Source of the DNA: Cyclobacteriaceae bacterium | GTDB taxonomy: Bacteria > Bacteroidota > Bacteroidia > Cytophagales > Cyclobacteriaceae | DNA: 47,346 nt | Assembly (NCBI GenBank): GCA_026989535.1 | Contig: JALSJD010000217.1 | Location: forward strand, 1-47,346 | Reading direction: 5' to 3' | Shown here: positions 2 to 6,077 of the stretch, piece after piece | Layout: every line of letters begins with the position of its first letter | Numbering within the stretch: position 1 is the first letter of the stretch | Position numbers and translations under genes: made by a program | Notes under the pieces: model-generated | Told to the model about the DNA's origin: nothing | The model's input: the letters and a program-made list of their open reading frames with translations, nothing else | Databases searched by the model: none

Positions 2-1579
2 ATTAATCGAGTAATGGAAGACCGTAAAAAGGAATTACTCCAAGAGATGAAAACCCAATTACCAACCATTTCCGGGTTTCATTCGGTAATACCTGCAGAC
101 CCAATACTAAGTAGCCCAACACTGCAGGAGGTTGCCGATCAGCTAGGTGCTCACGTGCTTTTTGGAGAAGATAAATTAGATAATTTAGCCACTTCGTTTC
201 AATCGGTAGCTATGCAGCTAAATAACTACCTTAAAATGATGAAAGATGGAAGCGTAGCCATCACCCCCGGAGACAGGCTCGATATTTTAATGGGAGCCTT
301 GCAAGCCAATAGTTCTCAAAATTTTCCAAGTATTTCTGGTATGGTGTTAACAGGAGGTTATAATCCTCCTAAAGAAGTATTTAAGTTACTAGAAGGTCTG
401 CCTACTATTTTCCCAGTGCTTTCTGTTAAAGAATTTACGTTTCAAACTTCGGTAAATGCAGGCAATATAAAATCGTCTATTTCCAACTCAAGCCATCGTA
501 AAATAAATATAGCTTTAGAGCTATTTGATAAGCACGTAGATTTAAAAGCATTTGAAGAGCGGGTGGTAAGCACCCAGGCTGCAGGTATGACCCCTAAAAT
601 GTTTGTCTATCAATTGCAAAAATTAGCAGCCAGCAATCGTAAACGCATTGTGTTGCCTGAGGGTAATGACGATCGCATTCTACAAGCTATTGAAATACTG
701 CAGAAAAAAGATGTGGTGGATATGATTGTTTTGGGCAATGTAGAAGAAATTAAGAACCGAGCCAATACGCTAGGCTTGATAATCGATTTTGATAAAACAC
801 CGATTATCGACCCCGATGATACTCATAAGAGCAAAGAATATGCCCAAGAACTGTTCGAATTGCGGAAAGCAAAAGGAGTTTCGTTAGAAATGGCTACTGA
901 TTTAATGCACGATGTGTCTTATTTTGGCACTATGATGGTGCATAAAGGCGAAGCAGACGGAATGGTTTCCGGGGCTGCACATACTACCCAACATACCATC
1001 AGGCCTGCTTTGCAATTTATTAAAACCAAACCAGGTTATAAAGTAGTTTCTTCTGTATTTTTTATGTTATTAGATGATCGGGTGGTGGCCTATGGCGATT
1101 GTGCCGTAAACCCTAACCCTACTGCAGAAGAATTGGCTGAAATAGCCATTTCATCGGCAGAAACCACCCAACGATTTGGCATTGAGCCTAAAGTAGCACT
1201 ACTTTCTTACTCCTCTGGAGATTCGGGCAAAGGAGCGGAAGTGGAGAAGGTGAGAAGTGCCACCCAACTATTTAAAGAGAAAGCTCCCCAATTTAAGGTG
1301 GAAGGGCCCATTCAATACGATGCGGCAGTTGATGCAATAATAGGCAAGAAAAAAATGCCGGGGTCAGAAGTTGCGGGGGAAGCCTCCGTATTAATTTTCC
1401 CTGATTTGAATACAGGCAATAACACTTACAAAGCAGTGCAACGCGAAACAGGGGCTATTGCCATTGGCCCCGTATTGCAAGGCCTCAATAAACCCGTAAA
1501 CGATTTAAGCCGTGGTTGCTTGGTAGAAGATATTGTAAATACGGTTATTATAACGGCAATTCAGGCACAGGAAGGATGA
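2..1579 (+). CDS. pta: Phosphate acetyltransferase, 5'-truncated by window edge
   Basis: Pta converts acetyl-CoA and phosphate to acetyl phosphate, the partner step to the acetate kinase that follows on the same strand. The frame is open to the left edge (residues INRV precede the first Met at position 14), so the N-terminal P-loop/dethiobiotin-synthase-like domain is missing here and Met at 14 is internal. What remains is a DRTGG-type regulatory domain (from about SSPTLQEVADQLGA, residues 35-150 counted from position 14) and the catalytic PTA_PTB domain (about residues 195-515), with RKRIVLPEGNDDRILQA, ADGMVSGAAHTTQHTIRPALQ, and the FPDLNTGNNTYKAVQR stretch near the end. Complete enzymes of this three-domain type are about 700 residues. 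It ends with TGA 174 bp upstream of ackA; a tandem repeat array fills much of that gap. Confidence 0.95.
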   Translation: MNRVMEDRKKELLQEMKTQLPTISGFHSVIPADPILSSPTLQEVADQLGAHVLFGEDKLDNLATSFQSVAMQLNNYLKMMKDGSVAITPGDRLDILMGALQANSSQNFPSISGMVLTGGYNPPKEVFKLLEGLPTIFPVLSVKEFTFQTSVNAGNIKSSISNSSHRKINIALELFDKHVDLKAFEERVVSTQAAGMTPKMFVYQLQKLAASNRKRIVLPEGNDDRILQAIEILQKKDVVDMIVLGNVEEIKNRANTLGLIIDFDKTPIIDPDDTHKSKEYAQELFELRKAKGVSLEMATDLMHDVSYFGTMMVHKGEADGMVSGAAHTTQHTIRPALQFIKTKPGYKVVSSVFFMLLDDRVVAYGDCAVNPNPTAEELAEIAISSAETTQRFGIEPKVALLSYSSGDSGKGAEVEKVRSATQLFKEKAPQFKVEGPIQYDAAVDAIIGKKKMPGSEVAGEASVLIFPDLNTGNNTYKAVQRETGAIAIGPVLQGLNKPVNDLSRGCLVEDIVNTVIITAIQAQEG

Positions 1580-1640
1580 TAAAAACGAGTTATTAGTTAG
1601 TGAATTATTTGTTAATAGTAATTGCCAATTAATTATCCAA

Positions 1641-1745
1641 CCTAATAACCATTAACCTAATAACCATTAACCTAATAACCATTAACCTAATAACCATTAA
1701 CCTAATAACCATTAACCTAATAACCATTAACCTAATAACCATTAA
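1641..1745 (+). repeat. Seven perfect 15-bp tandem repeats between pta and ackA
   Basis: The unit CCTAATAACCATTAA is repeated seven times without a mismatch, and the last copy ends 7 bp before the ackA start codon. Every unit carries in-frame stops, so the array is not coding. There are no spacers, so it is not a CRISPR. Its position would place it in the leader of ackA or in the pta-ackA intercistronic mRNA. Confidence 0.95.
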
Positions 1746-1752
1746 CTAAGCC

Positions 1753-2976
1753 ATGAAAGTACTCGTTATAAATACAGGAAGCTCTTCCATTAAATACCAA
1801 CTTTTTACCATGCCAGCAGGTGATGTGCTATGCACAGGGTTGATAGAACGCATTGGAGAAAAGGCAGGTGTACTTACCCATAAAATTTATCCATGCTCTA
1901 ATAAAGAAGTAAAACATATTGAAGAAAAGGCTGTTAGAAACCATTCGGTGGGTATGGAACGCATTGCCGCTTTACTTATAGATGCTAAATTTGGCGTATT
2001 GGCTTCTGCCAACGAAGTGGAGTTGGTAGGGCATAGGGTTGTTCATGGGGGTGAAACATTTTCGAGTACTACAGAAATTACAAAAAGAGTAAAAGATAAA
2101 ATTAAGGAATTGTCTCCACTAGCGCCTTTGCATAACCCCGCTAATTTAATAGGTATTGAGGTGGCCGAACAAATTTTTACAAAGGCCAAACAAGTGGCGG
2201 TGTTTGATACGGCCTTTCATCAATCTATTCCGGAGGAAGCTTATCGCTATGCGATTCCTTCCAAATTCTATACTGAAAATGGTGTGCGTGTCTATGGCTT
2301 TCATGGTACCTCGCATCGGTATATTACTAAACGAGCGGCTAGTTTAGTAAATAAGCCATTAGATAAAGTAAATTTAATTACCATTCATCTTGGTAACGGA
2401 GCCAGCATGGCAGCCATTAAAAATGGCAAAAGCATCGATACTACCTTAGGTCTTACTCCATTGCCAGGTTTAGTTATGGGTACGCGCAGTGGTGATATTG
2501 ACCCAGGTGTAATTTTTTACTTGAACGAAGCCTTAGGCTACGAGCTAAATGATATTAAGAATATTCTTAATAAAGAAAGTGGCCTTAAAGGGCTTGCCAA
2601 TGATAATGATATGCGTGGTGTTACTGAGCGCGCAGCAAAAGGTGATAAAGAAGCGCAACTGGCATTGGCTGTTTATACGTACCGTATAAAAAAGTATATT
2701 GGAGCTTATTTAGCTGCTATTGAAGCACCGCTGGATGCCCTTATTTTTACCGCTGGTGTAGGCGAAAATAGTGCTATTATTCGTGCGAAGTCAGTAGCAG
2801 GATTAGCGCACCTAGGCATTGATTTAGATATTGAGCTAAACAAAGTGAGAGGAGGAGAGCGTAAAATATCCACCAAAAACTCAGCAATCGATATCTGGGT
2901 AATACCCACAAATGAGGAATTAGAAATAGCGAGGCAAGTGTATGAGCTGAAAAGTATTACACGTTATGTGAGCTAA
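1753..2976 (+). CDS. ackA: Acetate kinase
   Basis: AckA interconverts acetyl phosphate + ADP and acetate + ATP in the cytoplasm. The 407-residue protein has the usual family length and the ASKHA signatures: N-terminal [12 protein letters not shown] (about residues 7-18), GHRVVHGG (about 95-102), the [21 protein letters not shown] segment, [19 protein letters not shown] followed by the [18 protein letters not shown] segment, and [13 protein letters not shown] near the C-terminus. The ATG at 1753 is the first Met and matches the family N-terminus. It follows pta on the same strand, as in most acetate pathways, but the intergenic gap is filled by a 15-bp repeat array. Its last 20 bp overlap the 3' end of the convergent sdhB gene, and no hairpin terminator is seen. 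Confidence 0.97.
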
Positions 2977-3709
2977 ACTTAGCACTCATATACTCTCGGT
3001 GAGCTCTAGCAATATGCTCTAGGCTTATGCCTTTGGGGCATTCTACTTCGCAAGCACCTGTGTTTGTACATCCACCAAATCCTTCTTCTTCCATTACGGC
3101 AATCATTTTTTCTGCTCGGTTAGCCCGCTCGGCATTACCTTGAGGCAATACAGCGAGTTGAGAAATTTTAGCAGCCGTAAATAGCATGGCCGAGGCATTT
3201 TTACAAGTAGCCACACAAGCACCGCACCCAATACATTGGGCTGCATCCATTGCTGTATCGGCCAAATGTTTGGCAATAGGAATTGCGTTGGCATCGGGGG
3301 TGCCACCAGTATTTACGCTTACATAACCTCCTGCCTGAATAATTCTATCCATAGGGGTTCTATCTACCACCAAATCTTTGATAACAGGAAAAGGCTTGGC
3401 TCTCCACGGTTCGATGGTAATTTCTTCACCATCCGAAAAGCTACGCATATGCAATTGACAGGTTGTAATTAACCCTTTTGGCCCGTGTGCGTGGCCATTA
3501 ATTACCATGCTGCAAGCACCACAAATTCCTTCGCGGCAATCGTGATCAAAGTGTACAGGGTCTTCCCCCTTACGAGTAAGGTCATCGTTTAACTCGTCAA
3601 TCATTTCTAAAAACGACTGATCGGGCGATACACCACTTACTTCATACGTGTAAAATTTCCCTTTATCGTTGGCATTTTTTTGACGCCATATATTTAGTTT
3701 GTGATTCAT
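2957..3709 (-). CDS. sdhB: Succinate dehydrogenase/fumarate reductase iron-sulfur subunit
   Basis: Electron-transfer subunit of membrane complex II; it carries electrons between the SdhA flavin and the quinone site. The 250-residue protein has the plant-type [2Fe-2S] ligands in CREGICGAC...C (about residues 59-83) and two ferredoxin-like clusters in [13 protein letters not shown] and [15 protein letters not shown]. These supply the [4Fe-4S] and [3Fe-4S] sites. It is the last gene of the sdhC-sdhA-sdhB set, but a four-helix-bundle gene lies between it and sdhA, so the gap from the sdhA stop to the sdhB start is about 445 bp instead of the usual few bases. The 3' end overlaps ackA by 20 bp tail to tail. 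Confidence 0.96.
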
Positions 3710-3742
3710 TTTCTTAATTGTTATTGGTTACTAAGTTATTGG

Positions 3743-4126
3743 TTAATGGTTGTTGTTCTTTTTCGCATTAGATAAATATTTAATATATCCGTTAAGAACT
3801 TTCAAGAAGGTATTGATAAGCCCTTTTGCATTATCCAATTCTGATTGGGTTATGTACGATTCTTCAGTTGCAACTAATAAATGATCAATGGTTTCATACG
3901 CAGAACCCCTGCTAATTCTGCAGAACTGAATGTTTTCTTGAAAATGAAATCTGCCATACCCTTCTGCAATGTTTGCAGTTATCGACCGTGCAGCTCTTTT
4001 TAATTGGCTTCCTAAATCATATTTTTCTTCGGGTGGCAGTGACCTTACTATTTGCATACTAAGTTTTCTTATTTCAACTCCAATTTTCCAACACTCTAAA
4101 TCTTCAAATGATCTTATATCAGACAT
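3743..4126 (-). CDS. Four-helix bundle protein (23S rRNA intervening-sequence/S23 family)
   Basis: A 127-residue, mainly helical protein with the family hallmarks: N-terminal SFEDLECWKIGVEIRKL, the SQLKRAARSITANIAEGYGR motif (about residues 40-60), the SRGSAYETIDHL motif (about 73-84), and a final helix. Relatives occur inside intervening sequences of bacterial 23S rRNA genes and also, very commonly in Bacteroidota, as stand-alone genes; their biochemical role is not established. Here it sits on the same strand between sdhA and sdhB. That is not its usual place and looks like an insertion into the operon. The boundaries carry an AACCATTAAC-like sequence that resembles the array before ackA. 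It starts 28 bp after the sdhA stop and ends 33 bp before the sdhB start. Confidence 0.93.
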   Translation of the reverse strand: MSDIRSFEDLECWKIGVEIRKLSMQIVRSLPPEEKYDLGSQLKRAARSITANIAEGYGRFHFQENIQFCRISRGSAYETIDHLLVATEESYITQSELDNAKGLINTFLKVLNGYIKYLSNAKKNNNH

Positions 4127-4154
4127 TGTTTTACCATTAACTCATTTCTATTAA

Positions 4155-6077
4155 CTATTTATAGCTTCTCTGGGTTAGTTTAACATTCTCAAAAACAAGT
4201 TCTTCTTTGTTCAAGGTTTCTTCCTTGCCTTCTCCATTATACTGCCAAGCAGCTACATACGAATAGGCATCGTCAATTCTCAGTGCTTCGCCTTCTTCGG
4301 TTTGAGACTCTTCTCTAAAGTGGCCGCCACACGACTCTTTACGATTTTGCGCATCGTCAACCATTAACTCGGCAAGCTCCAAGAAATCGGCTACACGGTT
4401 AGCTTTTTCTAACGACAGATTCATTTCTTCATTAGTGCCAACTACTTTTACATCTTTCCAAAATGCTTCCCGAATGGCTTTAATCTGCTCTTTTGCTTCT
4501 TTAAGACTGGCTTCGGTACGAGCCATACCTACATTATTCCACATTACCTTGCCTAGTTCTTTATGAAAATCATCTACTGTTTTAGTGCCATTGATTGATA
4601 ATAATTTATCAATTCTCTCTTTTACGACTTTTTCAGCATTCTTAAAAGCGGCAGAGTCAGTACTTGCTTTTTCATATCCAGCATCGGCTAAATAATCGCC
4701 AATGGTATAAGGCAATACAAAATAGCCATCGGCTAACCCTTGCATTAAGGCACTAGCACCCAATCGGTTGGCGCCATGGTCAGAAAAATTACATTCGCCA
4801 ATGGCGTATAACCCAGGTATGTTCGTCATTAGGTTGTAGTCAACCCAAAGGCCACCCATCGTGTAGTGTACCGCAGGGTAAATCATCATGGGTACTTCGT
4901 AGGGGTTATCACCCTGAATTTGCTGATACATATCAAACAAATTACCGTACTTCTCTACAATGGCATCTTTGCCTAATCGGTTGATGGCATCGGAAAAATC
5001 TAAGAATACCGCTTGACCGGTAGAGCCAACACCACGACCTTCGTCACATACCATTTTGGCATTTCGTGAGGCCACATCTCTGGGAACTAAATTACCAAAG
5101 GATGGGTATCTACGCTCTAAGTAGTAATCTCTTTCATTTTCGGGCAATTTTACTGCATCGGCAGCAGTTAGCCCTGGAATGGCTTTTTTAGGCACCCAAA
5201 TACGCCCATCGTTGCGCAAACTTTCCGACATAAGTGTAAGCTTGCTTTGGTGTTCGCCCGAAACCGGAATACAGGTTGGGTGAATTTGTGTAAAGCTAGG
5301 ATTGGCAAAATTGGCTCCTTTTTTATGTGCTCTCCAGGCAGCAGTAGTATTAGAACCCATGGCATTGGTAGAAAGGAAAAATACATTGCCGTAACCCCCA
5401 GTAGCAAGTACAACCGCATTTGCAGAGTGTGATTCTATTTTGCCTGTAATTAAATTACGGGTAATAATTCCACTTGCTTTTCCATCGGTCATTACCAAGT
5501 CGAGCATTTCGGTTCGGTCGTGGAGTTCCACTTTTCCTTTACCAATCTGTCGGCTAAGAGCACTGTAAGCACCAAGCAATAATTGTTGCCCTGTTTGACC
5601 ACGGGCGTAAAAAGTACGTGATACTTGCGCACCACCAAACGATCGGTTATCTAACAGCCCACCATACTCTCGTGCAAAAGGAACTCCTTGTGCTACGCAT
5701 TGGTCAATTATTTCGTTACTTACTTCTGCAAGCCTATAAACATTGGCTTCTCTTGATCGGTAATCACCTCCTTTAATGGTATCGTAAAATAATCTATAAA
5801 CGCTATCACCATCATTTTGGTAATTTTTGGCAGCATTTATACCGCCTTGAGCTGCAATACTATGTGCTCTACGAGGGCTATCTTGATAGCAGAAGTTTTT
5901 TACATTATAGCCCAGTTCGGCTAAAGAGGCCGCAGCAGATGCGCCACCTAAACCAGTACCTACTACAATGATGTCGTATTTTCTTTTATTAGCAGGATTA
6001 ACCAGCTTGCTATTAAATTTATGTTTTGTCCATTTTTCAGCCAATGGGCCTTCAGGAACTTTAGAGTCTAATGCCAT
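4155..6077 (-). CDS. sdhA: Succinate dehydrogenase/fumarate reductase flavoprotein subunit
   Basis: Catalytic subunit oxidising succinate to fumarate (or the reverse). The 640-residue chain shows the FAD dinucleotide motif [15 protein letters not shown] (about residues 35-49), [14 protein letters not shown] with the His that normally carries the covalent [12 protein letters not shown] in the substrate domain, [10 protein letters not shown] with the proton-shuttle Arg, HYTMGG and [14 protein letters not shown]. The length and the C-terminal helical domain fit the B-type enzymes of Bacteroidota and epsilonproteobacteria. It begins 2 bp after sdhC and is presumably co-transcribed from the promoter upstream of sdhC. 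Confidence 0.97.

Follow-up and report, generated by a model that had tools for sequence, protein, structure and literature searches.

The intervening sequences (IVS) of 23S rRNA genes, in many of which lies an ORF for a four-helix-bundle intervening-sequence protein of the S23p/IVP family, have been described in Coxiella, Leptospira, Salmonella, and other bacteria, and their stems are cut by RNase III (PMC4990558, in the part available). Tandem heptamers make up a second group of comparable sequences. Direct repeats of TAACTGA occur in Beggiatoaceae, Cyanobacteria, and some Bacteroidetes, with a sporadic distribution that is left unexplained in the available part of that article (MacGregor, 2015; PMC4679880), and GGGAATC-type heptamers have been reported in Xanthomonas and Nostoc (Rehm, 2015; available part of PMC4692102). 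Inverted repeats adjoining genes are represented by the Correia repeat enclosed elements, or NEMIS, of Neisseria (available part of PMC2649163).

The window analyzed here is a stretch of 47,346 nucleotides from a Cyclobacteriaceae bacterium (GenBank assembly GCA_026989535.1, contig JALSJD010000217.1), with a tandem array between the genes pta and ackA. Our main reading, to which we assign a probability of roughly 0.55, is that the pta-ackA gap holds a hairpin between cistrons, IVS-like but lacking an IVP gene, with a downstream arm enlarged by slippage, and that it is possibly an RNase III site. The proposed class would consist of intercistronic inverted repeats of 7-8-bp words, with a G-richer upstream arm and a C-richer downstream arm that stops a few bases short of the following start codon. 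Its copies would often enclose a PF05635 (IVP/S23p) gene, as the 23S rRNA IVS do, whereas the pta-ackA copy does not.

Likeness to the rRNA IVS lies in the complementary, stem-forming borders, which in many cases surround a PF05635 gene, in the scattered occurrence, and in the location within a longer transcript (PMC4990558, as far as the available text goes). However, the heptamer-arm elements occupy gaps between protein genes, their arms are made of 7-bp repeats whose words vary by copy, and at pta-ackA there is no ORF and RNase III cutting is putative. With the TAACTGA repeats they share short tandem words, most of them 7 bp long, which run forward immediately ahead of starts and are scattered between species, but the pta-ackA word is a different one, organized in an 8+7 unit, and neither an inverted partner arm nor an association with IVP is reported in the available part of PMC4679880. 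The terms "four helix", "intervening", and "S23" are absent from the available text of both PMC4679880 and PMC4692102. Membership of the TAACTGA family was rejected for the unit CCTAATAACCATTAA, which has the TAAC core alone in common with it. The GGGAATC repeats are likewise intergenic heptamer arrays, with about 70 inverted pairs in Xanthomonas and lengths that vary among related genomes, but they consist of one G-rich word per genome, taken as a quadruplex former, and the available part of PMC4692102 makes no link to IVP. The Correia elements, described in the accessible portion of PMC2649163, are similar as small gene-adjacent inverted repeats, cleavable by RNase III and able to alter their neighbours; they differ in combining an inverted repeat with a conserved core, whereas heptamer arms share a design and not a sequence. 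Heptamer repeats before starts (PMC4679880) and inverted heptamer pairs (PMC4692102) are already described in the available parts of these articles, while the heptamer-IVP link was not found in the literature searched (judged by titles and abstracts, with subscription papers mostly outside).

Table. Features of the window discussed in the text, with strand and basis of assignment.
Feature	Coordinates	Strand	Basis
pta, phosphate acetyltransferase, upstream cistron	14..1579	+	ORF; PF01515, PF07085; TIGR00651
Upstream arm: decayed reverse complement, ~2.5 array units	1589..1623	+	Inverted alignment; pairs with 1643-1679 in fold; repeat search also gives 1593-1623
Downstream arm: CCTAATAACCATTAA x7, perfect (8-mer + 7-mer)	1641..1745	+	Sequence; Tandem Repeats Finder
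ackA, acetate kinase, downstream cistron	1753..2976	+	ORF; PF00871; TIGR00016
sdhB-like iron-sulphur subunit	2957..3709	-	ORF; NCBIfam search
Heptamer words of the array's vocabulary (ACCATTAACCAATAACTTAGTAACC...), IVP stop to sdhB start	3713..3750	-	Sequence reading
IVP / four-helix-bundle gene (PF05635)	3743..4126	-	PF05635 E 2.8e-29; TIGR02436; PDB 2gsc E 9e-11
IVP gene upstream flank, GTTAATAG/GTTAATGG words, weak pairing with downstream arm	4127..4154	-	Sequence; own inverted score 18, rank 13/32
sdhA-like flavoprotein subunit	4155..6077	-	ORF; NCBIfam search

The identities of pta and ackA are supported by both Pfam and NCBIfam. The array of 105 bp starts 61 bases past the pta stop codon and comprises seven identical copies of its unit, a figure that depends on one assembly, a fragmented draft of 252 contigs. 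The last unit is followed by CTAAGCC (1746-1752) and the ackA ATG, and the sequence-only reading was exact in placing the end of the seven copies 7 bp before ackA. What it omitted was the composition of the unit, whose perfect period of 15 is made up of an 8-mer, CCTAATAA, and a 7-mer, CCATTAA, and also the decayed reverse-complement arm in the 60 bp before the array. Tandem Repeats Finder reported the array at 1639-1746 (period 15, 7.2 copies, 100% match) with a score of 216, against 58 for the second-best array in the window. A two-unit pattern allowing up to 3 mismatches had no second site in the draft genome (3.82 Mb, 252 contigs), and its backward control gave 0, indicating that the array is not a product of chance. 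In viral contigs the two-unit pattern had no match.

The array and leader (1639-1752) contain 1 G and 31 C, and none of GGAG, AGGA, or GAGG is present anywhere in the pta-ackA gap, in agreement with the earlier statement that a ribosome-binding purine run is missing. That the array itself forms the translation-initiation region does not follow from this, since Shine-Dalgarno runs are commonly missing in Bacteroidota and such a lack is no proof of an initiation site. A promoter in the gap was considered and rejected, as the promoter motif TAnnTTTG is present on neither strand, and a known RNA family was likewise discarded, with no Rfam match within the window. The 173-bp gap contains no ORF.

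Together with a decayed partner upstream, the array makes up an imperfect inverted repeat between pta and ackA, of which it is the downstream arm. Inverted alignment of the array with the upstream arm gave a score of 28, compared with 13.6 (sd 2.7) for dinucleotide shuffles, none of 1000 reaching the observed value, and the RNA duplex of both segments had an energy of -19.1 kcal/mol against -6.6 (sd 2.5) in shuffles (0/500 as good). When the whole gap was folded, 1589-1624 paired with 1643-1679 (z only modest at -2.03, equalled by 6 of 200 shuffles), and the majority of the array copies were left unpaired. The gap thus has borders whose complementarity would allow a stem, and the C-richer downstream arm ends just before the ATG, as in the heptamer-arm class. 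There is no PF05635 ORF between the borders, and the gap is therefore classed as IVS-like in design and not as an IVS; its period is 15 (8+7), compared with 7, 14, and 21 in the arms around IVP genes.

Relatives of ackA were found in 24 of 59 genomes searched. Within the genus, the pta-ackA gap measures 173 bp in the present genome (G000), 92 bp in G002, 53 bp in G001, and 20 bp in G003, and the 15-bp unit occurs in G000 only. The gaps of G001 and G003 have neither repeats nor a hairpin, while in that of G002 similar words build a strong hairpin (z -4.30 for the fold, 0/200 shuffles; inverted score of the arms 32 vs. 13.2, 0/1000; duplex -21.1 vs. -8.9, 0/500). In G030, which belongs to another genus, ackA is preceded by a 144-bp gap with other heptamers, in which alignment revealed no inverted pair (726 of 1000 shuffles as good) and duplex energy surpassed most shuffles (7/500 as good). 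As a separate observation, sdhB of G002 is 98% identical to that of the window and ackA just 78% (loci L202 and L008), which suggests a mixed bin or gene transfer.

Arrays of related words precede many unrelated genes, among them hisA, tpx, guaA, and sdhB (names given by eye from translated starts), and at matching gaps their lengths differ between species of the genus, about 80 bp in G000 against 29 bp in G004 before a gltD-like gene and about 99 bp against 22 bp before a gene starting MS.FDKKAA. Twenty sites with TAAC words, a selection from a longer list, were read in the genus, and 19 of them had an ORF nearby. At 12 of these 19 the array ended within 32 bp of a start on the same strand, at 3 more (L347, L356, L359) the match was the upstream arm of a hairpin, and 4 did not fit. 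Intergenic TAAC runs numbered 16 in 605,833 bp of G000, with 6 in the backward control, a count in which several runs share a gap and part of the sequence comes from picked contigs; 303,153 bp sampled from G001 gave 0, as did its backward control. A lag of 7 characterized 1 of 92 gaps in stretches of the same genome taken blind plus the window, 7 of 117 in picked contigs, and 3 of 100 in G001, with 0-4 for other lags; mainly the 117-gap set stands out, and it is biased, its contigs having been chosen from unit-like matches. Unit-like matches with 2 mismatches were not above the backward control in the genome (45 vs. 52), nor were those of a second count in G000 (75 vs. 90). The control is high because periodic arrays match it too, and these counts, not exceeding it, were given no weight.

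Gene-free hairpins built from 7-bp words were found in this genome in the gaps L161:6182-6252, L234:14835-14925, and L238:7350-7439, and the tpx gene of three species (L235, L352, L357) is likewise preceded by one. Other repeats were seen in passing. At about 200-420 of L160 (G000:C160), an arm of TATTGGT x10 and its complement surround a partly palindromic core, about 120 bp long, which has no ORF and resembles a REP or MITE unit, and L161 (G000:C170) carries at 26-268 a separate repeat with a 56-bp period (TACTCGTACTATGAG...), which precedes a gene on the minus strand close to where the contig ends. In another genus, perfect 15-bp arrays of CCAAATAACCATTAA x5 occur at two loci (L383 and L384; G336:C23 and C77), one of them 24 bp before a same-strand ORF and the other reversed between two minus-strand ORFs.

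These observations bear on how the array arose. A plain minisatellite, produced by polymerase slippage in an A+T-rich spacer and without function, its upstream arm being a chance relic or a separate event, agrees with the perfection of the copies and with their confinement to one genome; with up to 2 mismatches, the two-unit pattern was found in 4 of 196 family genomes, namely G000 and three that together belong to another genus and carry it elsewhere. Easier slippage of heptamers is, moreover, an idea cited in the available part of PMC4692102. Nevertheless, the inverted match of the upstream arm (0/1000 shuffles), the hairpin in the G002 gap, and the forward TAAC words before starts at 12 of 19 sites with an ORF speak against this explanation, which we consider unlikely. 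Slippage as such, proposed by the sequence-only reading as recent expansion or an ongoing process, is plausible as a recent expansion, given a perfect downstream arm beside a decayed upstream partner and, at other gaps, arrays whose length is not the same from species to species.

The words before start codons might instead be binding sites for a translational regulator, the role that MacGregor suggested for the TAACTGA repeats. Their forward orientation and position beside starts agree with the available part of PMC4679880, and the gap lacks a Shine-Dalgarno run; however, words vary from gap to gap in one genome, they are missing from orthologous gaps, and the matching upstream arm would be left without explanation, so that we regard a protein-binding leader as quite improbable. 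A contingency locus, in which fast changes in copy number would tune AckA against Pta, had been suggested from a perfect array adjoining the start codon, and array lengths do differ between species at other gaps. This proposal found no support and was rejected as highly improbable: the product of ackA is a housekeeping enzyme, the array codes for no protein and is missing before ackA in G001 and G003, and arrays of the same kind precede many unrelated genes. An artefact of assembly, affecting either the copy number or the join, would be conceivable in a draft of 252 contigs, but it has only the slightest probability, because a 108-bp array fits the usual short-read length and pta adjoins ackA in relatives too.

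An IVS-like hairpin at pta-ackA, the reading we prefer, draws on IVP genes elsewhere, beginning with the one in the sdhA-sdhB gap of the same window. Directly before the sdhB ATG, after the IVP gene, stands ACCATTAACCAATAACTTAGTAACCAATAACAATTAAG, and the flanks of this gene share the words of the ackA array, although its arms pair weakly. Among 29 readable genomes (L204 was dropped, the locus not showing the gap), 4 have an IVP gene between sdhA and sdhB, all 4 with TAAC-type words before sdhB; the remaining 25 gaps, of 4-105 bp and without IVP, showed no array by eye. PF05635 has six matches in this genome, of which the five readable ones all lie in gaps with repeat-like flanks. A copy at L171 (G000:C228) is interrupted by a stop codon while repeat-like words persist in its flanks, and such elements may decay in place. 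A gene for RNase III is present in this genome.

Beyond the window, PF05635 was detected in 52 of 60 family genomes and, in a phylum sample of 148 genomes, in 116, but in none of 14 control genomes. G001 has nine IVPs, yet the part of it sampled above showed no intergenic TAAC runs. Forty additional IVP loci came from the upper part of the family list. Arms were compared by setting the 110 bases upstream of the gene against a second stretch made of the final 30 bases of the gene and the 110 that follow it. At 69 Cyclobacteriaceae IVP loci, inverted matching averaged 26.3 for a locus's own arms and 16.4 for swapped ones (z 20.1, 0/5000 permutations). Left out of this set were L169 (clipped, its gene unread), L171 (gene broken, without a known start), L197 (at a contig end), L287 and L299 (with a misplaced start), and L309 (outside the 71 retained). 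Of the 69 loci, 33 lay above the 95th percentile of the swapped pairs and the other 36 did not. Swapping within genomes only gave the same outcome (0/5000; 54 loci in 20 genomes), whereas 69 ordinary genes, drawn from 127 of 90-165 aa in G000 and G001, yielded a z of -0.9. Direct matches between the IVP arms were also above chance at the 69 loci, more weakly (z 7.3). Autocorrelation peaked at 7, 14, and 21 bases on both flanks, with lag-7 values of 0.370 and 0.369 compared with 0.286 and 0.280 in the control. Base composition was skewed as well, with G exceeding C upstream at 59/69 family loci and C exceeding G downstream at 48/69, and the next ORF was co-directional with the IVP gene at 86 of 96 loci. 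A Bacteroidota sample of 29 IVP loci, which includes L331 and L335 despite start codons set too far inside, also separated own from swapped arms (z 12.5).

The same test was applied to arms at sites that share their downstream gene, here named after fadA, acyl-CoA dehydrogenase, and lpd, names that we presume from protein motifs. Own arms scored 27.6 against 18.6 at the fadA site (n = 16, z 4.9, 0/5000) and 28.1 against 17.9 at the acyl-CoA dehydrogenase site (n = 12, z 5.2, 0/5000), and at both the words vary between genomes. At the lpd site (n = 5) the words are common to the genomes and own arms were no better than swapped ones (z 1.3), and in the tpx gap no arm-specific co-change was detected either, own arms again not being better than swapped.

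A protein search of a plasmid collection returned 22 records, mainly cyanobacterial. At 16 annotated cyanobacterial plasmid loci, own arms scored 40.9 against 18.0 (z 9.7, 0/5000), with 9 of the 16 above the 95th percentile and lag-7 values of 0.442 and 0.406; this set omits L369 (unannotated), L371 (not a cyanobacterium), and the plasmid matches H6, H12, H13, and H15. The clearest case is L364, with GGGAACA repeats before the IVP gene and their reverse complement after it, and the exception is L366, which has direct repeats. Several of these plasmid IVP genes lie within operons. Some were noticed inside CRISPR operons (L361, L366, L370), in the gap between cmr2/cas10 and a cmr3-family gene or in that between cas6 and cas4.

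The pta-ackA array has a decayed complementary arm, the same design surrounds IVP genes in two phyla, and words are shared within the genome; we infer a common origin for IVP-less and IVP-bearing copies. With no ackA downstream of the gene at 98 IVP loci, and no IVP beside the scanned ackA loci other than the window's own sdh copy, nothing shows that the pta-ackA site ever held an IVP gene. The modest z of the whole-gap fold, the weak arms of the window's IVP gene, the 36 family loci not above the 95th percentile, the results at lpd and tpx, the failed alignment of the G030 heptamers, and the lack of TAAC runs in the sampled part of G001 also count against the hairpin reading. Under that reading, the arms would pair in the transcript, and the stem so formed after pta and ahead of ackA would be cut by RNase III, by analogy with the rRNA IVS, allowing the element to be tolerated between cistrons. 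The seven perfect units would have arisen by slippage that expanded the downstream arm alone, and the surplus copies, having no partner, would provide a longer G-poor leader before ackA.

A broader and more tentative proposal, which we hold as possible rather than probable, is that IVP/S23p genes and the heptamer repeats long described in cyanobacteria and other bacteria are two parts of one selfish element of operon gaps, in which inverted arms of short words flank a four-helix-bundle gene. It would be recognised by the shape of its stem and not by its sequence, and would include IVP-less copies like that at pta-ackA. Arms would then stay matched while their words turn over, which would need either hairpin-templated copying or selection on the stem. 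The S23p/IVP family, whose function is unexplained, and the scattered heptamer arrays of Bacteroidota and Cyanobacteria seem to belong together. Should they prove to be one element, culturable strains would offer a direct test of what IVP does, how the element spreads, and how its stem affects operon mRNA, and arrays like the one before ackA could be traced to a definite origin where so far a switch has been guessed.
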